DNA of 52,514 nt, from positions 1-52,514 of IMG/VR virus record IMGVR_UViG_3300017752_000017. One strand, given 5' to 3'. This document shows positions 1 to 28,888 of the stretch, one piece after another; position 1 is the first letter of the stretch; each line of letters opens with the position of its first letter. The stretch is from a virus. Below the pieces are notes generated by a model. The model was given only the letters and a program-made list of their open reading frames with translations, was not told the origin of the DNA and searched no databases. The translations under genes were made by a program, and so were the position numbers.

Positions 1-3
1 CGT

Positions 4-447
4 TCAAGAACCGCGCGAAGTGTTGGTAGTGCCACTCTCATGTTGAGTTGATGTACACACTCCGAACAGACGTTCTTCGTTTAAAAACAGTCCATTTTTG
101 ACTGTGTGTGCCTCACCTTGTGTGTCTCTGTATTGCACACGTGACACTGGAATGCCTCGATCCCCTGGAAACACGATAGAGTCTCCAGGTTTGACATTTT
201 TGCACCCGTTGCCGACCATCAACACTCTACCCACTCTCCAGGCACGTGGTGATGTGTTCAGAGGAATATAAATTCCATCGCGTTCGATAGCATTACCGTC
301 AGGTGACACATCTGTGAATTCGGCGAGGATTATATCATCGAACAGTGTTGTTAGTTGGTGGTCCGGGAGAACAAACTCGTCTCCCACGTATTTGGACAAA
401 TCGATTAAACTTTCAGTTGGTGTTATTTGATCTATGTTTGAGCTCAT
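4..447 (-). CDS. 31: GroES-like co-chaperonin (T4 gp31-like)
   Basis: A 147-aa protein resembling phage co-chaperonins that replace host GroES so that GroEL can fold the major capsid protein. The GroES-type beta-barrel is recognisable: a start FDDIILAEF, then GIYIP, a VGRVLMVGNG strand and KPGDSIVFPG near the C-terminal half. The ORF stays open upstream to a TTG at 489, but ATG 447 (MSSN) is the better start because it gives a shorter overlap with the upstream gene. It is the last gene of a three-gene unit with a gp62-like subunit and a DUF366-like protein. It is longer than T4 gp31 (111 aa). The family assignment is good; the exact start is less sure. Confidence 0.75.
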   Translation of the reverse strand: MSSNIDQITPTESLIDLSKYVGDEFVLPDHQLTTLFDDIILAEFTDVSPDGNAIERDGIYIPLNTSPRAWRVGRVLMVGNGCKNVKPGDSIVFPGDRGIPVSRVQYRDTQGEAHTVKNGLFLNEERLFGVCTSTQHESGTTNTSRGS

Positions 448-805
448 GTTGTTGTAATAGATACTTAACCTCACGAGTCGATAGTTCAAGTGTATCAGCT
501 AACAATTCGATATTTGTTTCTGGTTCACTGTCTTGTTGTTTTTCGTTTTTGTGTTTTTTAATGTATTGTATGTATCTTTTATGATACGAAGGTAAAACTT
601 TGAGCAAGAATTTGTAGTGCTGTTGTTTCGTTTCCAGCACGGGGTACATCCAATTGACAGTGGCATTAACAATATTTGCGGTTTCGTCAGAATACATGCT
701 GACCCACCGATTGATCATATATTGATTGTAGTCTGACTCATTGTCAACGTTACCTAGACTATTGCCTCTTTTGTGAAACAATATGTCATTCAGATGTTCA
801 AACAT
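413..805 (-). CDS. 62: Clamp-loader small subunit-like (T4 gp62-like)
   Basis: A 130-aa protein that I match by pattern to the short gp62 of marine T4-like phages. An N-terminal FEHLNDILFHK segment is followed by YNQYMINRWVSM, then a KQQHYKFLLKVLPSYHKRY stretch, in the order FMVNR ... YDFLI ... KRF typical of that group. gp62 works with the ATPase gp44 to load the gp45 sliding clamp; gp44 is not in this window. Its ATG directly follows the TAG of the DUF366-like gene (TAGATG) and its 3' end overlaps gp31. The C-terminal third is acidic and polar. The call rests on remembered family patterns, so confidence is moderate. Confidence 0.6.
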   Translation of the reverse strand: MFEHLNDILFHKRGNSLGNVDNESDYNQYMINRWVSMYSDETANIVNATVNWMYPVLETKQQHYKFLLKVLPSYHKRYIQYIKKHKNEKQQDSEPETNIELLADTLELSTREVKYLLQQHELKHRSNNTN

Positions 806-1393
806 CTATTTGCTTATGATTTTCGTAGTTGCGATGAACATATCATCATTGATTGCATAGAACAGATCAATCACATCTCGCATGAATGGTTCGATTTGAA
901 CATCAGTCAACCCGGTGCTGAAGGCATGCGCGGGTGCTTTGCTACCAGCAGTGACATTTATACCTGTATGTCCTAATGCCGCACCATCTTTCGTGTACGT
1001 GATACTCACACTACATTTGCCTTTGTTTTGCACAATACCACCTTGTGTGTGTTCTCGGTGTACGATCATGTCATCACCATCAAGTTCAATTGGAGCATTC
1101 AGATACTTCGAGCTCAGTATGTGAGCTATTTGTGTGTTGAGCAATCTTTGATATGCAACAGCACCAAACGAATCTAAATTCGGAATCTCCCAACAAAAAT
1201 TTATAGCATCATCACTATAAATAAATTCACCTTTGATGATGTCTTCTTCATCTATCATCCCATCTGCTTCAACGAGCATGGGGCTTCTGAAAGCCACAAT
1301 GTTGCCGATAGGTAGTGTTCTGTCTCTGAAATGTTTGTATGCAAATCTGCTGTGTATCAAGTCACCGTTGTATGTTTTTTGATCGATAATCAT
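806..1393 (-). CDS. DUF366-like protein
   Basis: A 195-aa protein resembling the mostly archaeal DUF366 family: SRFAYKHF near residue 16, GNIVAFRSPM near 30, a DEEDI segment, then a C-terminal SVSITYTKDGAALGHTGINV-type motif. Length fits the family (about 180-195 aa). The biochemical function is not known to me. It is first in an operon with the gp62-like and gp31-like genes and has its own early-type promoter ending 6 nt before ATG 1393. Because the phage also carries FolE, QueD, QueE and QueC, a role in 7-deazaguanine chemistry is possible, but that is only inference from gene content. Confidence 0.6.
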   Translation of the reverse strand: MIIDQKTYNGDLIHSRFAYKHFRDRTLPIGNIVAFRSPMLVEADGMIDEEDIIKGEFIYSDDAINFCWEIPNLDSFGAVAYQRLLNTQIAHILSSKYLNAPIELDGDDMIVHREHTQGGIVQNKGKCSVSITYTKDGAALGHTGINVTAGSKAPAHAFSTGLTDVQIEPFMRDVIDLFYAINDDMFIATTKIISK

Positions 1394-1427
1394 ACTACTA
1401 TTATAGATTATATATCGGTAAAATCAA
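1394..1427 (-). promoter_or_regulatory. Early-type promoter of the DUF366-gp62-gp31 unit
   Basis: On the minus strand TTGATT (1427-1422), a 16-bp spacer, TATAAT (1405-1400), then 6 nt and ATG 1393. The predicted transcript starts at the A of the ATG, so the mRNA would be leaderless. Confidence 0.75.
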
Positions 1428-2064
1428 CCACACGATCTTGCCTCAACCCATCACCATTTATTTCCATTCTCATCAACACTTTATTGACCCATAATGTTTT
1501 ACGTGACAATCTGTCGCATTGCTTGATGACCCTGTAATCACCACACTTCCAACCATCCCATTTAACTTGTTTTAGCAGCGAAGTTCGAGCAATAAAGCAA
1601 CCAGTATCAATCGCACATAATTTGATTCTTCTCATGACACAATCTTGATACCTGGGTAACACACCAGCAAATGTATCTGCTCGTGTGATCAACATGTCAA
1701 CATCATCTGTTAGCAGAGACATAATCATATGAACACTATCAGGTAACAAAAAGTTATCATCATCTAGATGGTAAACCCAGTCACTTTCTATATGATCATA
1801 AGCTATATTGAAATATAAATTGTGAATGGCATGCTTCTTGGGAGATGCAGACTCAGGTGCCGGTTCGTTGTATGAGCTTTGTAACGAGTCTCTATCAACT
1901 TGATGTACCATTTGAATATCGTAATCACACACATAATCTTTAGATGCTTGATTGTCAACTATAACATGATGCTCTATATCAATTTTTTGTTGTTTCAGAC
2001 TCTCACAACATCTGCTAAATAGATTAGGTCGATTGCTAGTCCTCGTTACTACGGCTAATTTCAC
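1408..2064 (-). CDS. Family 2-type (GT-A) glycosyltransferase
   Basis: A 218-aa GT-A-fold glycosyltransferase. It starts KLAVVTRTSNRPNLFSRC, the usual first beta strand and loop of GT2 enzymes, followed by a VIVDN strand and a DxD-type metal/nucleotide-sugar motif HLDDDN near residue 99. The start is GTG 2064, preceded by AAAGGAG 4 nt upstream, a strong Shine-Dalgarno site. It overlaps the end of the preceding glycosyltransferase by 29 bp, so the two are likely co-translated. It probably transfers a sugar to DNA, a virion protein or a cell-surface acceptor; the acceptor cannot be told from the sequence. Confidence 0.8.
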   Translation of the reverse strand: MKLAVVTRTSNRPNLFSRCCESLKQQKIDIEHHVIVDNQASKDYVCDYDIQMVHQVDRDSLQSSYNEPAPESASPKKHAIHNLYFNIAYDHIESDWVYHLDDDNFLLPDSVHMIMSLLTDDVDMLITRADTFAGVLPRYQDCVMRRIKLCAIDTGCFIARTSLLKQVKWDGWKCGDYRVIKQCDRLSRKTLWVNKVLMRMEINGDGLRQDRVVDFTDI

Positions 2065-2869
2065 GTAACTCCTTTAATCTTGTCGAAAGTTTAGTAACCT
2101 TCACTGGTTTTTTACATGTAAATTCACTCAACAGTTGTTCTTTACTCACTCCACGTTGTATGGACCAGTATCTTCTATGATAATGTACACCTAACCCATG
2201 TACCAACTTTTCATGCTTATCATGGCCATAAGCACATGCACCTTTGATTGTCTTCTCAACAAAATGATCATATGACCTGATGTTGTAATGTAGTAGTGCT
2301 AGATTGGTCCATAAATTGTCTCCAGATCCTTTGACTCTACCATGATGATTACCTTGATCTGTTGCAACAAACCAATTACTATGATAAAATGTCTTTGCAT
2401 ACCTGTTCTTCCAGTTAATATCTGCAGTGATGTTTTTAAACAACGAGAGTTCAGTTATATCTGTAGGTTCATTACTTGGTACAACATCTAGTTGGTTCAA
2501 TTTGTACCTGTAACCGTTCTTCACTGGCAACCGGTTGAATTCATTTAAGATTTGACCACCATCAACTCCAACACGTCTGTCTCGGTATGTCACGACAAAC
2601 TCATCACAATCCAGTGGCAGAACAAAACAATCATCACAATGTTGTTTTATTTTATCAGTAATAATTTTATGTTTGTTTTGAAAACTACTTTTGTTCAAAA
2701 ACACATTGACACCTCGATCTTTCCACTTCTTAAGTATGTGGTGAGTATTGTCAGTTGAGCCGTTGTCTATTATATAAACATTATGTGGATCAACAATATT
2801 GGTATGATGTAACAACCAATCGTTGATAACATCTTGTTCATTTCTAATGAATGAAAATATTTTTAACAC
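2036..2869 (-). CDS. Glycosyltransferase, Glyco_tranf_2_4/GT92-like
   Basis: A 277-aa glycosyltransferase-like protein. The N-terminus (FSFIRNEQDVINDWLLHH) matches the 'N-E-x-x-x-x-x-W-L-x-H' opening of this family, then YIIDNGSTDNT, and a DCDEF metal-binding motif near residue 97. Start is GTG 2869; the ATG two bases upstream is out of frame and stops at once. An early-type promoter lies just upstream, inside the 3' end of the neighbouring gene. It forms a two-gene unit with the downstream GT2 enzyme. Substrate unknown. Confidence 0.75.
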   Translation of the reverse strand: MLKIFSFIRNEQDVINDWLLHHTNIVDPHNVYIIDNGSTDNTHHILKKWKDRGVNVFLNKSSFQNKHKIITDKIKQHCDDCFVLPLDCDEFVVTYRDRRVGVDGGQILNEFNRLPVKNGYRYKLNQLDVVPSNEPTDITELSLFKNITADINWKNRYAKTFYHSNWFVATDQGNHHGRVKGSGDNLWTNLALLHYNIRSYDHFVEKTIKGACAYGHDKHEKLVHGLGVHYHRRYWSIQRGVSKEQLLSEFTCKKPVKVTKLSTRLKELREISRSNED

Positions 2870-2902
2870 ATGTAATTATACACTCTTCGAGAGAAATTTC
2901 AA
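2870..2902 (-). promoter_or_regulatory. Early-type promoter of the two-glycosyltransferase unit
   Basis: Minus strand TTGAAA (2902-2897), 16-bp spacer, TATAAT (2880-2875), then 5 nt to the GTG start at 2869. It overlaps the 3' end of the upstream small gene. The predicted mRNA has essentially no leader. Confidence 0.75.
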
Positions 2903-3136
2903 CGCTTTTTGCATCTCTCTTAAAACTGTACCTTTGCCACGACCTGGTGCTTCAACTTGGTTACCATCTTCATCTTCAGTTATTGTAGATGATGTTTGTC
3001 GTTTAAACTCATCGCGAAACGCGTTTACAAATTCGTTGCTAAGCTTAAGTTTCCTAGGAAACCTCTCTTTGACAATAGTCTTTAACACGCCGTAACGCTC
3101 TAAAAGTGTTTCAAATTCTATGTTATATTTGCTCAC
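2876..3136 (-). CDS. Hypothetical small charged protein
   Basis: An 86-aa protein I do not recognise. It is rich in Lys, Arg and Glu, probably helical (ETLLERYGVLKTIVKERF), with a middle acidic/Gly turn (TEDEDGNQVEAPGRGKG). Start is GTG 3136, placed 5 nt after a late-type AATAAATA box, so it is probably expressed late even though its neighbours have early promoters. No enzyme motif is visible. Confidence 0.65.
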   Translation of the reverse strand: MSKYNIEFETLLERYGVLKTIVKERFPRKLKLSNEFVNAFRDEFKRQTSSTITEDEDGNQVEAPGRGKGTVLREMQKALKFLSKSV

Positions 3137-3149
3137 AATATTATTTATT
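3137..3149 (-). promoter_or_regulatory. Late-type promoter, leaderless geometry
   Basis: Minus strand AATAAATA (3149-3142), 5 nt (ATATT), then GTG 3136. It matches the T4 late -10 consensus TATAAATA except at the first base. I see no -35 element. Confidence 0.65.
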
Positions 3150-3855
3150 ATATGATGAGCTTATTTACGTCTTTTGGATCTGTATAACCGTCTTTAGTGT
3201 TTCTGAACTGTGCTTCAATCTTTTCCATTTCATTAATATCTAACAATCCTTGCTCGTCAATAGACTTACCTGTATCAGGGTCAATATACAACTGGATCAT
3301 ATGTAATCTTTCTCTAGGATTACCAAAGACTTCAATTATAGCAGGTTTGTCATCTTTAGGAAAGAAGGTTGATGTCGGTTGCAACCACTGCTGATACATA
3401 GCTTTATATAGATTATCAATTTCCTTAATGTATTTATCATCAGTTTCGCGTTGTGATCTACTCACAATATCAACTGGTGCTACTGATGTTATAGGTATAA
3501 AAAATATTATGTCTATAAACTTCATAGACTCTCTTACTAGTGGTACACACTTGTCAATGAATTCTCTGTCAAATCCATCTTTATTTTTATCATGAGACCA
3601 TAGACTATACACGATATTATCTAGTGGACATCTATCAAAAATAATATTTTGACCACTATGATAATTCATTAGTTGTTCAGACATAAAATCTAAAATCTTA
3701 AATTGTTGCTCGATTGTAGTGTCTTTGCTATGACACTCATCAAGTATGTCTCTATAACTAGTTTCTGGTTGTTTGTATGATGTATATGTTTTTAAAAAAT
3801 CATTAATCAAGGTTGTTTTACCTTGACATGATGTACCTGATACTGCGATTCTCAT
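3148..3855 (-). CDS. P-loop kinase / AAA_28-type NTPase
   Basis: A 235-aa nucleotide-binding protein with an N-terminal Walker A (MRIAVSGTSCQGKTTLI; GTSCQGKT at about residues 7-14) and a downstream DRCPLDNIVYSLW motif like NadR- and thymidylate-kinase-type P-loop kinases. Such AAA_28 proteins recur in marine T4-like phages next to nucleotide-metabolism genes. The ORF extends to 3894, but ATG 3855 places the P-loop at the N-terminus, lies just after the upstream stop, and is 5 nt after a CATAAATA late box. It follows the phosphoribosyltransferase gene. A nucleoside or nucleotide kinase is likely; the substrate is unknown. Confidence 0.75.
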   Translation of the reverse strand: MRIAVSGTSCQGKTTLINDFLKTYTSYKQPETSYRDILDECHSKDTTIEQQFKILDFMSEQLMNYHSGQNIIFDRCPLDNIVYSLWSHDKNKDGFDREFIDKCVPLVRESMKFIDIIFFIPITSVAPVDIVSRSQRETDDKYIKEIDNLYKAMYQQWLQPTSTFFPKDDKPAIIEVFGNPRERLHMIQLYIDPDTGKSIDEQGLLDINEMEKIEAQFRNTKDGYTDPKDVNKLII

Positions 3856-3868
3856 GTTAATATTTATG
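3856..3868 (-). promoter_or_regulatory. Late-type promoter, leaderless geometry
   Basis: Minus strand CATAAATA (3868-3861), then TTAAC and ATG 3855. The box overlaps the TAA stop of the upstream phosphoribosyltransferase gene. It would give the kinase a late transcript besides read-through from the queD unit. Confidence 0.6.
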
Positions 3869-4382
3869 TACGTTCCCACGGGAACACAAGCCATTTATTA
3901 TCACAACGGTTACCAGTGTAATCAGGAACAAACACACTCCGATCTTTACAATATAATGCAGCTGTTGATATACTAACAACACCTTTATGAAACTTCTTAT
4001 ACATACGATTAACTAATCCTTTCATAGTCACACCTTCGTCGCATAGATCATCAACTATCAAGATGTTACGACCTGGTAAACCTTTCATGAGATCGTACAT
4101 TACATCCTGGTACATCATTCCATGTACATTACTAACATCTCTCTTTTTAGTTTCATCGTCATAACTATGATATCCATGTACCATAACTTCTCTGATTTTA
4201 AGTTTATGTGCTAAGATTGTAGCTGGTACTAAACCACCTCTACTCAACCCTACAATGCTGTTGATAACAAGATCATCATTAGATATTTTATCCGCAATAA
4301 TATTACAACATTCTGTAATCTCATCCCACGACAACATAGATTTACAATCTAAACCGTTAGAGGTTTGAGTATCTGAGCTCAC
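3864..4382 (-). CDS. Type I phosphoribosyltransferase
   Basis: A 172-aa phosphoribosyltransferase. The PRPP-binding signature ILIVDDLCDEGVTM lies at about residues 106-119, and SIVGLSRGGLVPATILA near residue 43 is the usual upstream loop of hypoxanthine/xanthine-type enzymes. It transfers ribose 5-phosphate from PRPP to a nucleobase. Start is GTG 4382, abutting the queE stop (TGAGTG), so it is translationally coupled to queE. Being next to queE and a P-loop kinase, it could act in base salvage or on a 7-deazapurine base; that is inference, and the substrate is not readable from the sequence. Confidence 0.8.
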   Translation of the reverse strand: MSSDTQTSNGLDCKSMLSWDEITECCNIIADKISNDDLVINSIVGLSRGGLVPATILAHKLKIREVMVHGYHSYDDETKKRDVSNVHGMMYQDVMYDLMKGLPGRNILIVDDLCDEGVTMKGLVNRMYKKFHKGVVSISTAALYCKDRSVFVPDYTGNRCDNKWLVFPWERT

Positions 4383-5147
4383 TCAAACTCCGGTTGTCTG
4401 ATCCCAGGCACTTACATGAAGCCGGGTGAGACCTACAAAACCATACTTCTTAGCCATTTCCATACAAAACAATGTACGTTCATGATAATCTTCTTGTTTA
4501 TCTAAACCAGGCATCATCAATACTCGTGTAGGTTCAATGTCGAAAGGTATCACAAAATCTTCAACAATTTCTTTTATGTCATCTTCTTGACTTATTACAA
4601 ATTTAAAAAAGTGATTATGATGTTCTTTGATACGCTCAAGAGCCTTGTTGACAATTCGACGATCTTTACTCATGCCACTATTTTCTAGCTTAACGGAGCA
4701 ATTGATTTGATGTAATTTACTAAACAAATCATTCTCAATGAAGATTGTACCGTTGGTTTCAATTTCATTGTAAACACTACTACTTGGGTTTTTTGAATAA
4801 AACCATTCTAAGAAATTGTTTATGGATTGTTGGTTCTTAGGGATGGTGGGTTCACCGCCAGTCCAGATGAGATGTACTCGACCCTGTTTAATCCAGTTGA
4901 GTACATCATACTCTTTCCATCTATCGACAAGGTATTCAAAAGGCTTTTCTAAACCTTTCTTCCAAACATATTCAGTATCACACCACCAAGTGGCTTTACC
5001 TTCTTTTACCAAACTACCATCTCTACCTCCACACATCAGATTACATGCTTTTAGTCTGATGAAATATGCTGGTACACCAGTAGTAGCACCTTCTCCTTGA
5101 ATAGAATAAAAATCCTCGGAGATGTTTAAAGTCTCGTACTTATGCAT
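4383..5147 (-). CDS. queE: 7-carboxy-7-deazaguanine synthase QueE (radical SAM)
   Basis: A 254-aa radical SAM enzyme that converts 6-carboxytetrahydropterin to 7-carboxy-7-deazaguanine, the third step to preQ0. Visible are FYSIQGEGATTGVPAYFIRL (substrate loop), IWTGGEPT (the SAM-binding GGE motif) and NEIETNGT. The iron-sulfur cysteines are unusually spaced: C35-X3-C39-X16-C56, so a 14-residue insertion separates the second and third cysteines of the usual CX3CX2C. ATG 5147 is chosen because it overlaps the upstream stop by 8 bp (ATGCATAA). It is in one unit with QueD and a small conserved protein. Confidence 0.9.
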   Translation of the reverse strand: MHKYETLNISEDFYSIQGEGATTGVPAYFIRLKACNLMCGGRDGSLVKEGKATWWCDTEYVWKKGLEKPFEYLVDRWKEYDVLNWIKQGRVHLIWTGGEPTIPKNQQSINNFLEWFYSKNPSSSVYNEIETNGTIFIENDLFSKLHQINCSVKLENSGMSKDRRIVNKALERIKEHHNHFFKFVISQEDDIKEIVEDFVIPFDIEPTRVLMMPGLDKQEDYHERTLFCMEMAKKYGFVGLTRLHVSAWDQTTGV

Positions 5148-5382
5148 TACTGCTTCCGCTTTCTTCGCTTGTTGTATTATCGTTTGCAAAATATTTTTGT
5201 ATTGTTGCGATCAAAGAGTCTAACTTGTCTATCTCTTCAATCTTGGTTCTTATTTCTTGTCCAATGTCGCTATGTTCACCGACACCTACAGGTCGTTCAA
5301 GATACACGGTCAAGTCCGCGATCACTTCATCTTTTCTACCAGCATATTGTGACAGTATTCCGTTAATGTGTTGTTTACTCAT
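5140..5382 (-). CDS. Conserved small protein between queD and queE
   Basis: An 80-aa mostly helical protein. The pattern RKDEVIADLTVYLERPVGVG followed by EHSDIGQEIRTKIEEIDKLD resembles a small protein I recall from many marine T4-like phages, without known function. It sits between queD (3-nt gap) and queE (8-bp overlap), so it is co-transcribed with the 7-deazaguanine genes. This does not prove a role in that pathway. The C-terminus is low-complexity and acidic. Confidence 0.7.
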   Translation of the reverse strand: MSKQHINGILSQYAGRKDEVIADLTVYLERPVGVGEHSDIGQEIRTKIEEIDKLDSLIATIQKYFANDNTTSEESGSSNA

Positions 5383-5385
5383 AAA

Positions 5386-6024
5386 TTAAAATCCCCAGGT
5401 AGTCTCACCGGTGAGCCATGTGTTTTTTTCTTTCTTAGGCCAAAGATTAGTCTTTGACTTATCTCTTGTATCATTTAACACTGCAGTTTTATTCACTTCA
5501 ACTACTTCTTCGACTCGTTCTTCAACTGCAATTGGCTCATCCATATTTATGATATTACTTGCTTGAGTATCAATCGCAACTGTTTTGTCTACCTTTTCAA
5601 AGATCGCTGAATTATTTTCATGTTCAAAAACTTCAACCTTGATACATTTACATCTCTTGTCTGTCAATCGTTGTACATGTTCATCTGCTGTACCATGGCA
5701 CCATTCGGCAAATTTTTCTATACCAACTCCATCCATGATTCTAAGATCACATAACTCATTATCTCGCAGTTGCTCAAACAACATGATTTTTGGATCAGCT
5801 CTGGATATACATGTTGTGTGGTCGAATTGGTTTTGTAAAATATTTTTCAGTTCTTTAAGACCACCAAAATCCACTACCCAATTGTTTTCATCAAGACTAC
5901 TTGCTTCAAACCAAAATTTAGCTGTGAGTCTATATCCATGTAGATATTTACAATGAGATGTAGCTGTAGGTTGGCGGAATGCGCAGCTACCTAACTCTAT
6001 AATTTTAGTACTTTTAAATGACAT
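5386..6024 (-). CDS. queD: 6-carboxytetrahydropterin synthase-like QueD
   Basis: A 212-aa member of the 6-pyruvoyltetrahydropterin synthase/QueD family, which turns dihydroneopterin triphosphate into 6-carboxytetrahydropterin. The Cys of the active site is kept (SHCKYLHGY; Cys25), as are DFGGLKEL, FDHTT and a C-terminal VEVFEHENN glutamate. Two of the three classical zinc histidines are not: AHR is AFR (Phe16) and HGH is HGY (Tyr31). About 70 extra C-terminal residues are low-complexity. An early-type promoter ends 6 nt before ATG 6024. It heads the unit queD, 80-aa gene, queE, phosphoribosyltransferase, kinase. Confidence 0.8.
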   Translation of the reverse strand: MSFKSTKIIELGSCAFRQPTATSHCKYLHGYRLTAKFWFEASSLDENNWVVDFGGLKELKNILQNQFDHTTCISRADPKIMLFEQLRDNELCDLRIMDGVGIEKFAEWCHGTADEHVQRLTDKRCKCIKVEVFEHENNSAIFEKVDKTVAIDTQASNIINMDEPIAVEERVEEVVEVNKTAVLNDTRDKSKTNLWPKKEKNTWLTGETTWGF

Positions 6025-6058
6025 GCTTTAATTATAGCATATCATTTTCGAGATTCAA
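6025..6058 (-). promoter_or_regulatory. Early-type promoter of the queD-queE unit
   Basis: Minus strand TTGAAT (6058-6053), 16-bp spacer, TATAAT (6036-6031), 6 nt, then ATG 6024. It has the same geometry as the folE and gp32 promoters. The mRNA would start at the ATG. Confidence 0.8.
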
Positions 6059-6338
6059 GGTCTTTATCCAATTTTATTTCAATTGTTTGTATCATGTTGT
6101 TGAGATTATCTGCGAACCAGCAGCAACCTGCACTAGCGAATGGTAATAATATAAATGTATTATATTCCATGAGGCTGTTGAATATTAAAACCAAACAACC
6201 GGCCCAGAAACCGAGACACAAACTACATGATAACAATTCCTTCAACAATTTACATTTACACAGGAATACCCGGGGCACATTAAGTATAGTGCCATATTTT
6301 AGTATAAAAACTAAACCGATGCAGGTGAGTAAGTCTAT
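6042..6338 (-). CDS. Small membrane protein with CSLCLGFWAG motif
   Basis: A hydrophobic protein with a conserved-looking LLSCSLCLGFWAG motif and two or three membrane segments, the type of small unknown membrane protein common in bacteria and phages. The first ordinary start is GTG 6278 (78 aa), but the same frame is open upstream to a TGA just past 6350 and encodes a further hydrophobic segment (IDLLTCIGLVFILKYG) with no ATG, GTG or TTG. The nearest plausible start is ATA 6338, overlapping the TAG of the upstream gene (ATAG), giving 98 aa. The start is unresolved; the coding call is good. Confidence 0.6.
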   Translation of the reverse strand: MDLLTCIGLVFILKYGTILNVPRVFLCKCKLLKELLSCSLCLGFWAGCLVLIFNSLMEYNTFILLPFASAGCCWFADNLNNMIQTIEIKLDKDLESRK

Positions 6339-6511
6339 TGCTTTTCTAGCTTGTTGACCGCATCAGTAACCATTTTTGCTTGGCTTTTTTCCATTGTGAC
6401 AGTGTTACCGTAATCGTCTTTGATCTTGACTTTACCGTCATCGGTGATGGTTAGTTCAGGGCAGCATTTCTTACCACCGCATAATACAATTGTTTTGCTC
6501 TTTTCGCTCAT
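6335..6511 (-). CDS. Small hypothetical protein, 58 aa
   Basis: A 58-aa ORF from ATG 6511 to TAG 6335: a cysteine-containing start (IVLCGGKKCCPELTI), then TDDGKVKIKDDYGNTVTM and a helical C-terminus VTDAVNKLEKQ. The small beta-rich part followed by a helix looks like a real folded mini-protein. It starts 5 nt after a late-type AATAAATA box and its stop overlaps the membrane protein frame. CGG and CC could bind a metal, but that is speculative. Confidence 0.7.
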   Translation of the reverse strand: MSEKSKTIVLCGGKKCCPELTITDDGKVKIKDDYGNTVTMEKSQAKMVTDAVNKLEKQ

Positions 6512-6524
6512 ACAAATATTTATT
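6512..6524 (-). promoter_or_regulatory. Late-type promoter, leaderless geometry
   Basis: Minus strand AATAAATA (6524-6517), TTTGT, then ATG 6511. No -35 element and no Shine-Dalgarno site fit upstream of the start. Confidence 0.65.
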
Positions 6525-6530
6525 ATAACT

Positions 6531-6935
6531 TCATACGTTTTCTATCTTGATAACGTTTAATTCAGTACCTGATTCTCCTGTATCATAGAAATCGATGTTC
6601 TTACCTAAAAAAGTGTCTTGCACGCGACCTTGGTCGTCCATCACTGTGACTGAAATCTCATCCGATTGTGTGGAGATAATCTGTATCAGTTTATTATTGC
6701 TCTCATCTCTGGCGATCAATGTTGTTGTGTCGTTTTGTGTTGTTGTGTTGATCACTTCTCCTGAGTATGGTCTCTGAATCGCACCATTTGCTGGTCTGAT
6801 ATAAATGTGTATAGTGTCAATTCCATATTCATCAACTTCAGGTTGTGTTAAGTCATCGTCCTCATGTAACATACACATAGGTTCATGTGACATGTTCATG
6901 TAGATATCAGCAATGGTGTGTATCTCGTTGCTCAT
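6531..6935 (-). CDS. Hypothetical acidic protein
   Basis: A 134-aa acidic protein I do not recognise. After an N-terminal helix (EIHTIADIYMNM) it is predicted to be mostly beta, with repeated Thr/Asn/Asp stretches (NTTTQNDTTTLIARD), suggesting a small virion-type beta domain. Its ATG overlaps the TGA of the upstream nucleotidyltransferase gene (TGATG), so the two are coupled. A possible late box (AATAAATA) lies 13 nt before the start. Confidence 0.65.
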   Translation of the reverse strand: MSNEIHTIADIYMNMSHEPMCMLHEDDDLTQPEVDEYGIDTIHIYIRPANGAIQRPYSGEVINTTTQNDTTTLIARDESNNKLIQIISTQSDEISVTVMDDQGRVQDTFLGKNIDFYDTGESGTELNVIKIENV

Positions 6936-7624
6936 CAGTTTAGTAAAATATTTATTACCTGGTCTTCCTGATCTGGAGATAAAAATCCAGGACCATTGAA
7001 TTCAGCACCAGCACCAGGCCCTGGTAACAGATTTCTCAACGTGTCAGCATCTTTTATACCAATCGCGATATCATGTATTGCACCTCTTGTTTCTGTACCG
7101 GAAGCATATCTAGCTACTGGTCTAGCCATAACATCTGTCACATGTGAACCTTTGTATAATACACCATCTTTGAAGAACGCGGAGTATCTTCCTTTCAGGT
7201 CTTCGGCTCCTGCGTATAAAGAAACCTGTAACTGTTTACTTTTAGATTTGTTGTATATATCTTGGGCATCACTATGTACGTCAATCTGCTTGTCAGATAC
7301 TAATTTGCCGCTGTTGTTGAGCAAATTGACAGCTTGATATGTAACCGCAACCGGGCTACCTGATACAACTTTGATTTCAATGTTAGGTTTTTGCATTGCT
7401 TCAAGATAAATCTTCCATATCGCTACCATCTTCTCAACAGTTATATTAGGGTCTCTACAACTGTCAGATGCAATTATATAACAATTGGTATTCTCTTCAC
7501 TCATTTGTTTAGCAGTCATATAATGACCTTTGTGAGGTGGTGAAAAGCACCCTGGGAAGAAACCAACGCTTGTCTGTTGTTGTTCGTCAACAAAAGATTC
7601 AAAAAATTCTTTAAATGTGTTCAT
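6935..7624 (-). CDS. HxGH nucleotidyltransferase with head-targeting-like leader
   Basis: A 229-aa protein with a cytidylyl/adenylyltransferase core: VGFFPGCFSPPHKGHYMTA contains the nucleotide-binding HKGH at about residues 32-35, and the ISSTxxR-type motif region may be the RYASGTETRGAI stretch. Such enzymes couple a nucleotide to a phosphorylated substrate. The N-terminus MNTFKEFFESFVDEQ looks like the short leader of T4 internal head proteins (compare the ligase-like protein at 10091-11431). It overlaps the upstream gene by 1 nt (TAATG). Substrate unknown; packaging in the capsid is inferred from the leader only. Confidence 0.75.
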   Translation of the reverse strand: MNTFKEFFESFVDEQQQTSVGFFPGCFSPPHKGHYMTAKQMSEENTNCYIIASDSCRDPNITVEKMVAIWKIYLEAMQKPNIEIKVVSGSPVAVTYQAVNLLNNSGKLVSDKQIDVHSDAQDIYNKSKSKQLQVSLYAGAEDLKGRYSAFFKDGVLYKGSHVTDVMARPVARYASGTETRGAIHDIAIGIKDADTLRNLLPGPGAGAEFNGPGFLSPDQEDQVINILLN

Positions 7625-8040
7625 TATGTTTTGAAGCTGTTTCTGTAAATGTTGAGCAACTGCAAATCACACAATCCGAATTGTCCTAAATACATCTCAA
7701 GTTGTTCAAGTGTTTCTATTAAATCTAGTTGTTTCAATTCACATTCAGATTCGATATGACCATGTTTGATTAAACATTCCATCGCAGCTCCCTTGAGCTT
7801 ACATAAACTAGATTCAACCGGCGGTTGTATCATTTCTATAGAATCAGCTCCAACATTCATTATTCCATCCATCAAACCTGGGATGAATATAGTAGCACTA
7901 TTTGATGTTTCATCCTCTTCAAGTAAATACCCTTCATAACTTTGCATGGATTCATGGTTACCTGGATCACGTTTGAATCTAATTTTCTTAAGAGATATCG
8001 AGCCTAGTGCTTGTTGAATTATATTATTGAGACTACTCAC
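7624..8040 (-). CDS. Hypothetical protein
   Basis: A 138-aa protein I do not recognise. An N-terminal helix (NNIIQQALGSISLKKI) and a central beta region with PGLMDGIMNVG precede a helical C-terminus. Start is GTG 8040, 5 nt after an AATAAATA late box. It is first in a likely late unit with the nucleotidyltransferase and the 134-aa protein, which may be virion proteins. Confidence 0.6.
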   Translation of the reverse strand: MSSLNNIIQQALGSISLKKIRFKRDPGNHESMQSYEGYLLEEDETSNSATIFIPGLMDGIMNVGADSIEMIQPPVESSLCKLKGAAMECLIKHGHIESECELKQLDLIETLEQLEMYLGQFGLCDLQLLNIYRNSFKT

Positions 8041-8053
8041 AACATTATTTATT
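8041..8053 (-). promoter_or_regulatory. Late-type promoter, leaderless geometry
   Basis: Minus strand AATAAATA (8053-8046), ATGTT, then GTG 8040. It lies back-to-back with the early-type promoter of folE on the other strand. Confidence 0.65.
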
Positions 8054-8064
8054 TAATAAAACAG

Positions 8065-8099
8065 TTGAAATACTCAATTGAGCAGTTATAATTGTGTTT
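8065..8099 (+). promoter_or_regulatory. Early-type promoter of folE
   Basis: TTGAAA (8065-8070), 16-bp spacer, TATAAT (8087-8092), then 7 nt to ATG 8100. It is close to the sigma-70 consensus. The predicted start is 8099, so the mRNA has at most a 1-nt leader. Confidence 0.85.
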
Positions 8100-8762
8100 A
8101 TGAGTAATGTTATGAATTTAGATGGAGTGAAGCTAACCTTTGCAAATGGTAATCATCCGCGGTCAGAAGAAGAAAAACAACAGATTATTGAGAATGCTGC
8201 TAAGGCGTATGAAGCGTATATGGATGCCCTAGGATTTGATTGGAGAAATGACCCTAACAGCGCTGATACACCTAGAAGAGTCGCGAAAGCTTTTGTAAAC
8301 GATTTGGCTGCCGGTTGTTATGATGCCCCTCCGAAGATTACGACTTTTGATAATGTGGATCAGTATGATGGTCTTGTGTTTCAAGGTAACATCAAAACCA
8401 ACTCTTTCTGTTCTCATCACCATCTACCTTTTATAGGTCAAACACATGTAGCGTATATACCAGGTAAGGATGGTCAGGTTATCGGTTTGAGCAAATTGAA
8501 TCGTATAGTGGAGTGGTTCTCTCGTCGACCACAAGTGCAAGAAAACTTAACCATGCAGATACACAAACATATTAATGAGGTGTGTGTAGGTAACAATGGA
8601 GTGGCAGTACTTGTTGAGGCTAACCACACTTGCGCTGGTCTTAGAGGTGTCAAACATGACAGTACAATGAAAACTGCGAGAATGAGCGGAGCCTTTTTTG
8701 ACAAGAAGGACATAAACACCAGACAGGAATTTTACGATTTTGTGAGAGATTTAAAAAGATGA
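8100..8762 (+). CDS. folE: GTP cyclohydrolase I, FolE
   Basis: A 220-aa GTP cyclohydrolase I that makes dihydroneopterin triphosphate from GTP, the first step of preQ0 synthesis. The zinc and active-site residues are in place: FCSHHHLPF (Cys and His ligands), AYIPGKDGQVIGLSKLNRI, and NHTCAGLRGVKH with the third ligand Cys. Length and full-domain conservation fit a functional enzyme. The frame also has a GTG at 8094, but ATG 8100 sits right after the promoter. With queD, queE and queC elsewhere in the window it completes the preQ0 set. Confidence 0.95.
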   Translation: MSNVMNLDGVKLTFANGNHPRSEEEKQQIIENAAKAYEAYMDALGFDWRNDPNSADTPRRVAKAFVNDLAAGCYDAPPKITTFDNVDQYDGLVFQGNIKTNSFCSHHHLPFIGQTHVAYIPGKDGQVIGLSKLNRIVEWFSRRPQVQENLTMQIHKHINEVCVGNNGVAVLVEANHTCAGLRGVKHDSTMKTARMSGAFFDKKDINTRQEFYDFVRDLKR

Positions 8763-8914
8763 AAACAATTATAGATAAAATAGACATTAAGTGTGCTTCA
8801 GGTTTATGTGAACACACAATACATAATTACAACCTAATATCATGGTTTGCAGTGATAGCAATTGCCACAATCGTGTTTAAATATACACATGAGTACAACA
8901 AAAACAAAAACTAA
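8759..8914 (+). CDS. Small single-span membrane protein, 51 aa
   Basis: A 51-aa ORF starting with ATG inside the folE stop (ATGA). It has a hydrophilic N-terminus with two cysteines (KCASGLC), one membrane span (NLISWFAVIAIATIVFKY) and a basic tail (EYNKNKN). The overlap coupling and clear topology support it as a real gene. Function unknown; a small phage membrane protein. Confidence 0.6.
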   Translation: MKTIIDKIDIKCASGLCEHTIHNYNLISWFAVIAIATIVFKYTHEYNKNKN

Positions 8915-9107
8915 GAAACCAGTCGATCAAACAGAAGATGTTTCAGATTTAAATACTATGATAAATTTATCATTATCGTTCACGAAAGAAATCGAAAACA
9001 TTATGACTGTTGATAAACTTACTTTCACTGAAAGATCTAGCGCACTAGGTACAGCTACAAAATATTTTGTTGAGGCTGTTAATGAAGTGGCTGAAAGAAA
9101 TGCTTGA
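8889..9107 (+). CDS. Hypothetical small protein, 72 aa
   Basis: A 72-aa protein from ATG 8889, overlapping the preceding small membrane gene by 26 bp in another frame. The N-terminus is basic (TTKTKTKKP) and the rest helical (SDLNTMINLSLSFTKEIENI ending VEAVNEVAERNA). I do not recognise it. It continues the folE unit; the next gene overlaps its stop by 8 bp. Confidence 0.6.
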   Translation: MSTTKTKTKKPVDQTEDVSDLNTMINLSLSFTKEIENIMTVDKLTFTERSSALGTATKYFVEAVNEVAERNA

Positions 9108-25334: not shown

Positions 25335-26396
25335 ATGACTTCAATAGACAAAGACACATTAAAAATTTTTGATAAATTAGACAAGCTAAACCCGGAAGCA
25401 AAATTTCTCTCAGAAAGCGCGCTATCGAGTGTGACCGAATGGCATGACACAGGTTGTATGGTGTTGAATGCAATATGTTCTGGTAGTTTATATGGAGGTA
25501 TACCCAAGGGTCGCATTGTCGGCTTCGCAGGTCCAAGCCAAGCCGGTAAAACATATATCACTAATAAAATTTTAGCCCGGGCCCAATCTGAAGGTCTCAT
25601 CCCGGTAATTTTCGATACTGAAATGGCGGTTGATGAAGCTGCTTGTAAGAGTAGTGGTCTAGACTCATCGAGCGTCAAATACGTACCGGTACAGACCGTT
25701 GAAGATTGTCGGAATCAGCTCGTCGCATTTCTGGATAGTGTGATTGAAGCCAAAGCTCAAGGCCGGTTCATCATATGTATAGATTCACTTGGTAATTTAG
25801 CAAGTCAGAAAGAGATTGATGATGTTGAGAAGGGTAAAACAGCGATGGACATGGGAACTAGAGCCAAGGGTCTGAAGAGCATGATGCGGACACTCACATT
25901 CAAAGCTGCACATGCAAACACAACTATATTATTTGTCAATCATACATATGACGACCCAGCGGCTATGTTCCCTACTCTTGTCAAGCAACAGAGTGGAGGT
26001 AAAGGTCCAGTGTATCTGGCAAGTGTTCTTGTACAACTGGCCAAACGCGACGAGAAGCAAGATAAAAATAATGAAGATGATGAAATGCTACCGGATGCTA
26101 ACAAATATAGTGGAGTAACATTAAGAGCTCTAACAATAAAAAATCGTTTTGTTCCTCCGTTTTTAGAAGCTGAAATGTATCTAAATTTTAAGACTGGTTT
26201 AGACAAATACTCTGGGTTGAGAGAAATGGCTATCAATCACGGAGCATTACAACAAAATGGTAGTACATACTGTTTACCAGACGGTAGCAAACTCGGCTAC
26301 TTTAAAAACTGGTGTAAAAATACAGAATTATGGGACGACAAGATATTACCAATACTTGAAGAAAATCTTAAGAAGTCCTTCCGGTATGGTAGTTAA
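25335..26396 (+). CDS. uvsX: Recombinase UvsX (RecA-like)
   Basis: A 353-aa strand-exchange recombinase. Walker A GPSQAGKT (66-73), an FDTEMAVDE strand, Walker B FIICIDSLGNLAS, and MVNHT-like ILFVNHTYDDP are in RecA order. It works with UvsY and gp32. The 3' end overlaps the minus-strand 59-aa gene by 4 bp. Confidence 0.95.
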   Translation: MTSIDKDTLKIFDKLDKLNPEAKFLSESALSSVTEWHDTGCMVLNAICSGSLYGGIPKGRIVGFAGPSQAGKTYITNKILARAQSEGLIPVIFDTEMAVDEAACKSSGLDSSSVKYVPVQTVEDCRNQLVAFLDSVIEAKAQGRFIICIDSLGNLASQKEIDDVEKGKTAMDMGTRAKGLKSMMRTLTFKAAHANTTILFVNHTYDDPAAMFPTLVKQQSGGKGPVYLASVLVQLAKRDEKQDKNNEDDEMLPDANKYSGVTLRALTIKNRFVPPFLEAEMYLNFKTGLDKYSGLREMAINHGALQQNGSTYCLPDGSKLGYFKNWCKNTELWDDKILPILEENLKKSFRYGS

Positions 26397-26618: not shown

Positions 26619-27326
26619 ATGAAGAAATGTGTGGTACCTGTTAGCGGTGGAATAGATTCAACAGTAATACTATATCTTGCTCTGAGCGAGGGGTATGAAG
26701 TGTTTCCTGTGAGTTATGATTACGGTCAGAAACATAAAGAAAAGGAATTGCTCTGCGCGGAACGTAATGTGTACCGAACAACAAATCAAAATACAAAAGT
26801 GTTAGATTTACGTTTCTTTAAAGATATTGTGACTACTAGCGCACTCACAAACGATGATATTGATGTTGCTAAAACAAGAGATGTTCTAGGAGATCCTCAG
26901 ACAGTAAATTATGTACCAAATCGTAACATGATGATGTTGTCAATATGTACTGCATATGCAGAGTCAATCGGAGCTGAGACTGTGTTTCATGGAGCTGCTC
27001 TTGTGGATAGCCAGGCTGGTTTCTGGGACGGTTCAAAGGAGTTTTTAGATGCAATAAACAAAGTGAATGCTCTAAACAGACGAACTCATATCAAAATTTC
27101 AGCACCACTGATATTGAAGAGCAAGAAGGACATAATACAAATGGGAATGAAGCTAGGTGTTGACTTTTCATTGACATGGACATGTTACGAAGGAAAAGCA
27201 CAAGCTTGTGGTGAGTGTACTGCATGCAGCTCGAGAATACAAGGATTCATCGATGCAGGTTATAAAGACCCGGTGCAGTATAGCCGTGACATACCATGGA
27301 GTAAGTTTAATTTAACAGAAGTGTAA
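26619..27326 (+). CDS. queC: 7-cyano-7-deazaguanine (preQ0) synthase QueC
   Basis: A 235-aa ATP-dependent enzyme converting 7-carboxy-7-deazaguanine and ammonia to preQ0. The N-terminal PP-loop is VPVSGGIDSTVILYLAL (SGGIDS), YVPNRNMMML matches the QueC substrate region, and CYEGKAQACGECTACSSR provides the four zinc cysteines. Full length. The class II amidotransferase starts 1 nt after its stop, so they are probably made together. Confidence 0.95.
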   Translation: MKKCVVPVSGGIDSTVILYLALSEGYEVFPVSYDYGQKHKEKELLCAERNVYRTTNQNTKVLDLRFFKDIVTTSALTNDDIDVAKTRDVLGDPQTVNYVPNRNMMMLSICTAYAESIGAETVFHGAALVDSQAGFWDGSKEFLDAINKVNALNRRTHIKISAPLILKSKKDIIQMGMKLGVDFSLTWTCYEGKAQACGECTACSSRIQGFIDAGYKDPVQYSRDIPWSKFNLTEV

Positions 27327-27327
27327 C

Positions 27328-27993
27328 ATGTGTGGTATATTCGGAGCAAAAGATTTTAAACGATTTGAGAAGCTATATATAAAAAATTGTGATCGAGGAA
27401 ATTTCGCTCATGGCTTTGTGTATGTCAACAGAAACGGTTCTATGTATATCAAGAAAAATAGAGGTGTATGTTCATTGACTGGTCAATACGCTTGGCAACA
27501 TCAATTACAGTATGATATGTATCTAGGTCATACACAAGCACCAACATCTGCAGAAAGAGATTACACATCCTGCTATTCACATCCATTCGATGTTGGTAAT
27601 TTTATAGTCGCACATAACGGTGTATTAGAAAATCATCTCGATTTAGCCATTGAACATCGAATTGACCCAAGTGAAATCAAAGTCGATAGTCAAATATTCC
27701 CTATGCTGATGGATGATTTGTTTGTTGGTAGTGATGTCCTTGCGATACAAGAAACATGTAGTATGATAAAAGGTATATTCGCATGCTGGGTATTTTGTAA
27801 GCATACTAAATTAACATATGTTGTAAAAAATGGCAGTACACTTTACACGAACAAAAACCGAACTACATTTTCATCGATAAAAGTTGAAGATGTTGATCAG
27901 GAGTTAAATGACGGTATCGTATACTGTTTCACTACTGAAGGTCTAGCAGAAGTCGGTGAATTCAAGACCGATAATCCTTTTTTTATATTATGA
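27328..27993 (+). CDS. Class II glutamine amidotransferase beside queC
   Basis: A 221-aa Ntn-type glutaminase domain: nucleophile Cys2 in MCGIFG, DRGNFAHGFVY, GHTQAPTSAER (glutamine-binding Arg region) and VAHNGVLEN. It releases ammonia from glutamine for a partner. There is no synthase domain, so the partner is separate; queC, 1 nt upstream, is the obvious candidate. In known Gat-QueC proteins such a domain is fused to a QueC-like part and makes archaeosine-type amidines from preQ0. Here the two parts are separate genes, and that role is inference. It overlaps the next gene as ATGA. Confidence 0.85.
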   Translation: MCGIFGAKDFKRFEKLYIKNCDRGNFAHGFVYVNRNGSMYIKKNRGVCSLTGQYAWQHQLQYDMYLGHTQAPTSAERDYTSCYSHPFDVGNFIVAHNGVLENHLDLAIEHRIDPSEIKVDSQIFPMLMDDLFVGSDVLAIQETCSMIKGIFACWVFCKHTKLTYVVKNGSTLYTNKNRTTFSSIKVEDVDQELNDGIVYCFTTEGLAEVGEFKTDNPFFIL

Positions 27994-28187
27994 ATAATTA
28001 TGCTATAACATACGAGCTACAAAATTATGACCTGACATTTGTTAGATACGTCCAATCACAGAATACTGATGATGCGATTAGACAGTTTAACACTACATGT
28101 CGATCAGAACACCCGAACAAGCTTACAAAAGTTTTGCGGATCCGTAAAGTCAAGGAGCAACAGGATAAGATAGTAGTATCACAATGA
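27990..28187 (+). CDS. Small hypothetical protein, 65 aa
   Basis: A 65-aa protein, ATGA-coupled on both sides (amidotransferase and glycosyltransferase). It reads as a small alpha-beta domain: NYAITYELQNYDLTFVRYV, then NTDDAIRQFNTTC and a basic tail LRIRKVKEQQ. It resembles no family I know. Part of the queC unit. Confidence 0.65.
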   Translation: MNNYAITYELQNYDLTFVRYVQSQNTDDAIRQFNTTCRSEHPNKLTKVLRIRKVKEQQDKIVVSQ

Positions 28188-28888
28188 AACCAATATTAAT
28201 AGTAAGCTGTACTAGAGGTACAAAATCTAGTACTAAAATTTACCAAAGCATGAACATATTGTCAGGTGGTGAAGTCAAGCTAAATATTGTTGAGAATAAT
28301 GACGAAAGCTTACCTGTAGTATACAACAGGTTTCTAAATAAAAAGACACAGAACAAACACGACATTGTGCTGTTTGTACACGATGATGTGTATATTGATG
28401 ATTTAAAACTCCGCGGCAAGTTGTATAGTAATATGTGTGTGTATGATATTGTCGGTCTCGCAGGATGTATCAAGCCGGTTATTAAAAAACCAACCTTGTG
28501 GCACCTGATGACGTCACGAGAAAACCTAAGAGGTTCTGTTGCTCATCCAGTTAAACCAGTTACTAAGACCGGAACAGATGAGTATGTTATATCAAACACG
28601 TCGTTTGGCTACACACCATGTCGAGTGGCCATAATCGATGGTTTGTTCATGGCAGTTAATCTCAAAAAGATTCTTAAAACCGGGTGGAAATTCAATGAAA
28701 ATTTTGATTTTCATCATTATGATATTGCTAGTTGTCTAGATGCAAATAAATTGAGATTAAAAATAGGTGTTGCGCCAATACATGTGATACACGATTCTCC
28801 AGGATTGCTCGACGTTAACGATATATCATGGACCAAATCACAAGAAAAATTATTAGAGTTATATGGAACAACAAACAACAGCGATTGA
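28184..28888 (+). CDS. StrF-like glycosyltransferase (Glyco_tranf_2_5)
   Basis: A 234-aa GT-A-type enzyme. PILIVSCTRGTKSSTKIYQS opens the fold, VLFVHDDVYIDDL carries the DxD-like motif near residue 68, then IDGLFMAVNL and FDFHHYDIASCLDA, as in StrF-type transferases. It lies in the queC unit and overlaps the gp41 helicase gene by 26 bp. Linked expression with the preQ0 genes makes sugar addition to a modified base a thinkable role, but nothing in the sequence shows the acceptor. Confidence 0.75.
   Translation: MKPILIVSCTRGTKSSTKIYQSMNILSGGEVKLNIVENNDESLPVVYNRFLNKKTQNKHDIVLFVHDDVYIDDLKLRGKLYSNMCVYDIVGLAGCIKPVIKKPTLWHLMTSRENLRGSVAHPVKPVTKTGTDEYVISNTSFGYTPCRVAIIDGLFMAVNLKKILKTGWKFNENFDFHHYDIASCLDANKLRLKIGVAPIHVIHDSPGLLDVNDISWTKSQEKLLELYGTTNNSD

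Follow-up and report, generated by a model that had tools for sequence, protein, structure and literature searches.

FolE, QueD, QueE and QueC are thought to be a closed enzyme set for the precursors of queuosine and archaeosine. Vibrio phage KVP40 and 6E35.1a carry a folE-queC-amidotransferase cluster in a T4-like phage background, as do the phages described here, and in KVP40 this cluster lies close to the gene for the gp31 co-chaperonin. Cui et al. 2023 reportedly predicted the phage protein DpdL to be a 7-carboxy-7-deazaguanine decarboxylase. A protein of Pyrococcus horikoshii with a DUF366 domain has a solved structure (2ddz), the entry title of which states no function. We found no paper that uses DUF366 as a word, and nothing relevant either under the family and structure identifiers (COG2029, PF04017, PH1223, 2DDZ) or in literature tying queuosine to biotin or lipoate ligase. 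Deazaguanylation by Cap9/QatC combines QueC chemistry with a second protein, according to passages of PMC13329287 and PMC13279940; the former is a 2026 survey of the QueC family, in the main text of which DUF366 occurs 0 times.

The window (the whole stretch of DNA analysed) is an entire linear IMG/VR record of 52,514 bases. Judged from its sequence, the record is a fragment of a T4-like phage, with genes for gp32, a DnaB-type helicase, a family B polymerase, RecA/UvsX, terminase, sheath and baseplate. The initial annotation described a phage with a preQ0 pathway, and we matched all four preQ0 genes within the window: FolE GTP cyclohydrolase I (8094..8762, plus strand; Pfam E 1.9e-47; the promoter fits an ATG at 8100), a QueD-like 6-carboxytetrahydropterin synthase (5386..6024, minus strand; Pfam PTPS E 1.4e-16, PHROG 2389 E 9e-33), a QueE-like radical SAM protein, the 7-carboxy-7-deazaguanine (CDG) synthase (4383..5189, minus strand; PHROG 2076 E 5e-45; NCBIfam QueE E 3e-20, which is under the curated cut-off), and QueC, the preQ0 synthase (26619..27326, plus strand; Pfam PF06508 E 4.7e-57). 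Directly 3' of QueC is a class II glutamine amidotransferase-like protein (27328..27993, plus strand; Pfam GATase_6 E 4.7e-4, under cut-off; 33% identity to the QueC-adjoining protein of locus L089), and a glycosyltransferase (28184..28888, plus strand; Pfam PF13712 E 7e-9) accompanies the two. QueE is adjoined by a phosphoribosyltransferase (3864..4382, minus strand; Pfam PF00156 E 1.2e-12), and a P-loop kinase resembling deoxynucleoside and thymidylate kinases is encoded at 3148..3894 on the minus strand (PHROG 2107 E 2.4e-14). The phosphoribosyltransferase is of the xanthine/hypoxanthine type and possibly makes a 7-deazaguanine nucleotide.

The gene considered here is an open reading frame of 195 codons at 806..1393 on the minus strand, with its ATG at 1393; our listing of reading frames gave the same coordinates as the initial annotation. 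Its assignment to DUF366 was borne out by a Pfam profile search (PF04017, E 5.4e-21, 75.4 bits against a cut-off of 29.9), in which residues 4-191 of the protein align to positions 8-182 of the 184 in the profile. PHROGs version 4 has no match for the protein at E up to 0.1. No que gene adjoins DUF366 in the window, where QueE lies 3 kb upstream and QueC 25 kb away.

We collected phage relatives in two sets. Set 1 consists of the best 80 of 465 DUF366 relatives from a scan of viral contigs (81 loci with the window), and set 2 of the best 80 of 149 relatives from a second scan that used a distant DUF366 member as query. By contig name no overlap between the sets was noticed; L089 and L153 are one contig. 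We looked for QueE, QueD and QueC in 46 records of set 1 and for QueE in 15 records of set 2 (80 records in each set), which together include all 11 records longer than 60 kb (eight from set 1, three from set 2). The 46 set 1 records contain QueC in 8, QueD in 26 and strong QueE matches in 29, and QueE is present in 9 of the 15 set 2 records; radical SAM matches in G039 (E 5e-6) and G041 (E 5e-8) were judged to be other proteins and were left out of these QueE counts. QueE was found in all 11 DUF366 phage records above 60 kb, as against 27 of 50 shorter ones, so that the misses fall among short contigs, and QueC was found in six of the eight set 1 records above 60 kb. The expected co-occurrence with 7-deazaguanine genes in related phages is thus present, in counts that are not independent events because loci within the phage clade, as within each bacterial phylum below, share descent. 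For a baseline, of the 50,697 named phage records 266 match QueE and 2,505 match the terminase of the window phage, so that no more than roughly a tenth of such phages would carry QueE. The phosphoribosyltransferase occurs in few relatives (2 of 82 loci, and 1 of the 80 loci of set 2).

In 13 of the 80 set 2 loci, queC, the amidotransferase gene and the glycosyltransferase gene lie within 3.1 kb upstream of DUF366. Some of these loci branch deeply within the phage DUF366 clade (midpoint-rooted tree), suggesting that this neighbourhood may be the old one. The PF13712 glycosyltransferase thus accompanies queC and the amidotransferase at two different genome positions (26619-28888 in the window; set 2 loci such as L153), and with a glycosyltransferase that travels in this way, a glycosylated 7-deazaguanine is conceivable.

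A tblastn search with three queries, which can miss distant relatives, found DUF366 in only one of the 50,697 named phage records, the Microcystis phage MaAM05 (L082, MW495066.1). This record resembles a piece of a Vampirovibrio chromosome and was not counted as a phage; its locus was removed from the neighbourhood counts of set 1, and its DUF366 is nearly identical to that of L084. The 'phage' annotations of MW495066.1 include scpAB, secDF, fliM, glyS and fabI. Plasmid records gave no DUF366 match.

The initial annotation called the family mostly archaeal. This does not hold: DUF366 is present in 44 of 46 genomes of one bacterial phylum, that of L087, and in 132 of 292 sampled genomes of another, that of L083, while our archaeal members are one solved structure and two control genomes; Methanosarcina acetivorans is among the carriers. 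The L083 phylum is presumably Cyanobacteriota, a name that, like Melainabacteria, is taken in part from record titles. A first scan of bacterial and archaeal genomes returned six DUF366 loci, and in L087 queC, DUF366 and queE stand in a row, the queC stop and the DUF366 start overlapping as TGATG. We examined loci from 41 of the 44 positive genomes of the L087 phylum (G069, G076 and G078, which have split genes, were left out). queC directly precedes DUF366 in 32 of the 41 and is somewhere in the stretch in 38; queE directly follows in 28, and both genes flank DUF366 in 25. An HD-domain dGTPase-like gene (4102-5283 of L087) follows queE, and 31 of the 41 loci contain a match within the stretch (phylum of G051).

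Most of the 132 positive genomes of the L083 phylum are of 1.5-2.5 Mb. We examined 60 of them, namely the 30 best-scoring, 20 low-scoring, nine others and G047 (through L083), and found queC directly before DUF366 in 54. The pair is present in all 30 best-scoring and all 20 low-scoring loci, and in 15 of 20 loci of a chosen set that overlaps the best-scoring ones. Of the nine other genomes, four have it; the remaining five, which are larger, lack it, as does G047 (L083); with four more Vampirovibrio-type genomes without the pair, the count becomes 54 of 64. Five Vampirovibrio-type loci lack the pair and show no QueC in the stretch examined, and DUF366 is solitary, again with no QueC nearby in the stretch, in the five larger genomes of the phylum (L303-L307, 4.1-6.5 Mb). 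In L090, L092 and the records G047, G049, G050 and G052, all Vampirovibrio-type and carrying DUF366, two PTPS/QueD-type genes lie side by side. At one Cyanobacteriota-type locus that we scanned, the pair is surrounded by HEAT-repeat, SPOR and GatB genes; with neighbours so unrelated, the conserved pair there is queC-DUF366 itself.

The bacterial pair is a line of evidence independent of the phages, and makes the link to 7-deazaguanine much stronger. The initial annotation proposed DUF366 as a candidate for a step on a 7-deazaguanine, and the co-occurrence with QueE together with the queC-DUF366 pair in two bacterial phyla argues for this; we conclude that DUF366 very probably acts in 7-deazaguanine synthesis. 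The evidence points to the stage at which preQ0 is made, at the level of QueC, a stage in common with bacteria that have ordinary TGT and QueF, and not to a base-modification step specific to DNA.

Several other assignments were rejected. QueF and TGT are each present in 44 of 46 genomes of the L087 phylum, and QueD in all six DUF366-carrying cellular genomes, so a replacement of any of the three by DUF366 finds no support. QueC itself keeps its motifs in the loci examined (P-loop in 83 of 83, Cys motif in 82 of 83), which speaks against DUF366 supplying a lost QueC half-reaction. A fusion of QueC with DUF366 was not found among the DUF366 open frames listed, which at 46-273 amino acids are too short. 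The intact motifs cut both ways: a QueC that is not degenerate makes DUF366 more likely to be its partner than its replacement, and the same QueC may need no helper, which argues against a partner. In 14 control genomes QueC was matched in 12 (11 over cut-off) and DUF366 in 2, so many organisms manage without DUF366.

The AF2 model of DUF366, from 19 sequences, has a pLDDT of 92.6 and a pTM of 0.89. Foldseek returned 2ddz first and then lipoate and biotin ligases at E of about 5e-6. In the VIA comparison the model matches 2ddz with a Z of 23 over 179 residues, Aquifex biotin protein ligase (BPL) with 13.2, BirA with 12.9 and LipB with 12.3, the matches within the ligase superfamily reaching Z of about 11-13 over some 145-165 residues. 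As modelled, therefore, DUF366 has the biotin/lipoate-ligase fold; a relationship with the T-fold of FolE, QueD and QueF was considered and dropped, as the fold search returned the ligase fold. Sequence comparisons are suggestive. The best match of the DUF366 profile in the PDB after 2ddz is the Aquifex biotin ligase, at E 0.023, in a register that sets GdDlyv-eekKls against WPNDVYF-QEKKVS and iHvglN against VGIGIN. Profile-profile comparison with biotin ligases gave the same register weakly (probability 9%, and 21% with P 0.001), and with single LipB/LplA sequences nothing significant.

Six residues, D49, D52, D107, K114, H130 and N134 in the numbering of L087, are invariant in all 169 distinct sequences. 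The Asp of the ligase motif WPND and the Lys of KK, which we take to be catalytic residues of BPL, align to the invariant D107 and K114 (D108 and K126 of the window protein), in an alignment that is weak when made from sequence only. The GRGRxGR ATP/adenylate loop of the ligases is found in none of the 19 aligned DUF366 sequences. Where the ligases' strand-loop-strand bears it, DUF366 appears, by topology, to have M-(I/V)-D-x-E-D. With the ATP loop missing and D-x-E-D in its stead, adenylation by DUF366 alone is doubtful.

The pairing with QueC, a fold that handles carboxylic acids and the kept Asp and Lys together point to a 7-carboxy or 7-amide intermediate. Our leading proposal, which we put forward with evenly balanced confidence, is that DUF366 is a ligase-fold partner of QueC in preQ0 synthesis, handling one of these intermediates. 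DUF366 would bind CDG, the product of QueE, or its amide ADG, and would contact or partner QueC. The Asp/Lys pair inherited from the ligases might handle the acyl group of CDG or ADG, and the acidic D-x-E-D loop could bind a metal or the edge of the guanine; no usual adenylate would be made by DUF366 itself, given the missing ligase ATP loop. The protein may hand CDG from QueE to QueC, or it may complete or protect the amide-forming step. Were this true, a conserved QueC partner, found in archaea, in bacteria of two phyla and in a large, uncultivated group of T4-like phages, would be a missing piece of the textbook pathway, and a domain of unknown function would become a directly testable protein.

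The same intermediates might instead be drawn into a side branch, with DUF366 converting CDG or ADG to a different 7-deazaguanine; decarboxylation to 7-deazaguanine itself, the step predicted for DpdL, is one example. CDG bears the carboxylate that the Lys of the ligases would be expected to contact, and QueE is near: it lies 3 kb upstream of DUF366 in the window and is the next gene after it in the 28 of 41 bacterial loci given above. The bacterial partner is, however, QueC, which consumes CDG, and the L087 phylum retains TGT and QueF in 44 of 46 genomes each, as expected for ordinary queuosine. DpdL would act on the same CDG and is reported from cultured phages. The named phages, including the QueE-bearing Cellulophaga phages, lack DUF366 by tblastn except for MaAM05, from which it follows that DUF366 is probably not the published DpdL. 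We consider a side-branch enzyme unlikely.

Since BirA, a protein of the same fold, is both ligase and repressor, DUF366 could also be a sensor or regulator that binds preQ0 or CDG in a BirA-like manner and controls QueC or transcription, a role to which the pairing of its gene with queC would lend itself. As modelled, though, the 195 residues form a single ligase-fold domain with no DNA-binding domain, and the strict conservation of Asp and Lys looks catalytic; we judge this role improbable.

The fold relatives are also enzymes that attach carboxylic acids to protein lysines, which brings to mind an acyl transferase that would use QueC-activated CDG to modify amines on proteins or nucleic acids, and so provide another route of 'deazaguanylation'. 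Modification of protein N-termini with CDG is described or proposed for Cap9 and QatC, two relatives of QueC (passages of PMC13279940 and PMC13329287). Against such a transferase stand the missing ATP loop, the unrelated genes around the pair at the one Cyanobacteriota-type locus scanned and the lack of any substrate protein linked to the queC-DUF366 pair, and we think there is little likelihood of it. In the boldest form of the idea, which we regard as decidedly improbable, DUF366 would represent a novel class of acyl-transfer enzymes that lack the ATP loop and pass QueC-activated CDG to the amine of a protein, a nucleotide or DNA. If it were true, phages without a recognisable DpdA would make or load a modified guanine for replication in place of swapping bases afterwards.

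In the phages, DUF366 heads a trio of genes. The gene that follows it, at 413..805 on the minus strand, begins with no base between it and the DUF366 stop codon and encodes a gp62-type clamp-loader subunit (PHROG 225 E 6e-10); the next, at 4..489 on the minus strand, encodes a GroES-like co-chaperonin by a weak match (PHROG 3188 E 0.002; Pfam Cpn10 E 0.0087, under cut-off), and the profile of this family ranks GroES chains first in the PDB, but at E 0.14 only. This is the order, ahead of clamp-loader and co-chaperonin genes, that the initial annotation described. gp62 is downstream of DUF366 in 81 of 81 loci of set 1 with the window and in 78 of 80 of set 2, immediately 3' in 68 and 72 of these, respectively; elsewhere there is a longer gap after DUF366, usually of about one gene. 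A GroES-like gene accompanies them in 78 of the 81 loci and in all 80 of set 2. Identity to the window copies within set 1 is 67-93% for DUF366, 30-70% for gp62 and 35-72% for the GroES-like protein.

The promoter proposed ahead of DUF366 was also recovered. A sigma-70-type site, TTGATT-N16-TATAAT, lies at 1400..1427 on the minus strand, matches the consensus at 10 of 12 positions and ends 6 nt 5' of the DUF366 ATG. Promoter-like sites in window positions 1-9000 number 28 against 36.4 expected, not above chance, so a single site carries little weight. The promoter is, however, conserved: of the 62 distinct regions upstream of DUF366 in set 1, 51 have it, and in 43 of these the -10 box stands exactly 6 nt from the ATG. 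Control stretches, taken from the end of DUF366 and so mostly lying before gp62, gave 0 of 62, and shuffling of the bases would yield 0.73. In the two sets together, this promoter type precedes DUF366 in 86 of 117 cases, QueD in 10 of 13, FolE in 5 of 6, QueC in 8 of 14 and QueE in 8 of 18. Rates are lower for the kinase (6 of 31) and amidotransferase (2 of 13) genes and very low for gp62 (1 of 109) and GroES (1 of 107), and the QueC-adjoining glycosyltransferase has it in 0 of 15 cases. DUF366 thus has this promoter type in common with the 7-deazaguanine genes; the QueD-like gene of the window has it 6 nt 5' of its ATG. It also precedes UvsX, gp32 and a glycosyltransferase in the window, genes outside the pathway, and so marks the heads of transcription units and not the 7-deazaguanine pathway alone.

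TTGAAA-like/TATAAT promoters lie in the window at 1400-1427, 2875-2902 and 6031-6058 on the minus strand, at 8065-8092 on the plus strand, and 5' of the plus-strand genes at 25335 and 32202, with -10 boxes that end about 5-7 nt before the start codon. The 6-nt spacing would place the start of the DUF366 transcript at the ATG, and we predict a leaderless mRNA; by promoter spacing, FolE, QueD, a glycosyltransferase, UvsX and gp32 are predicted to have leaderless mRNAs as well. The phage DUF366 would be made from its own strong promoter, presumably early.

A place at the head of this trio might suggest that DUF366 is tied to replication only, an accessory of gp62 in phages in which que genes are merely common, and the constancy of gp62 downstream (81 of 81 and 78 of 80 loci, with 68 and 72 immediate) would fit. 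In bacteria, however, DUF366 pairs with queC, and gp62 lacks the promoter type that is frequent before the que genes. We strongly disfavour this explanation and hold it very unlikely, and return to DUF366 as a QueC partner.

For the phage, the purpose of such a partner might be to supply 7-deazaguanine for phage DNA, and modified bases in the DNA of the window phage are likely from its gene content. The TGT family (PF01702) was found in 0 of 21 DUF366 phage records. Three DpdA-type profiles (three DpdA2-like proteins, HVTV-1 gp69 and phiSM gp52) gave no match in the window, in 160 loci or in a 199 kb record, nor was a hidden DpdA recognised among the 13 window proteins of unknown or doubtful role; this search covers, in the window, a genome fragment and, among the several DpdA types, those behind these profiles. 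DUF366 phage records such as G010 (L252-L261) carry preQ0 genes and no recognisable DpdA/TGT transglycosylase. DUF366 may suggest how phages without a recognisable DpdA obtain or use 7-deazaguanine.

Compared with the described phage clusters, 6E35.1a has an annotated TGT-like protein in its cluster and KVP40 an unnamed protein of similar size there. Neither has DUF366 by tblastn, whereas the DUF366 phages have no recognised DpdA. The cultured phages of DpdL likewise lack DUF366 by tblastn apart from MaAM05. With 2ddz, a protein from a hyperthermophilic archaeon that belongs to the same family, the DUF366 profile has in common the motifs GDD, K-x-S-x-S and H-x-G-x-N. With biotin protein ligase/BirA and LplA/LipB (PF03099), DUF366 would share a like fold and, in register, the Asp of WPND and the Lys of KK(I/L/V); unlike them, it has no PF03099 match at E up to 0.1 and bears D-x-E-D in place of GRGRxGR. 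In Cap9/QatC, as set out in the passages cited above, the partner of the QueC chemistry is its substrate, whereas beside DUF366 the QueC motifs are canonical and the partner is predicted to have a ligase fold.
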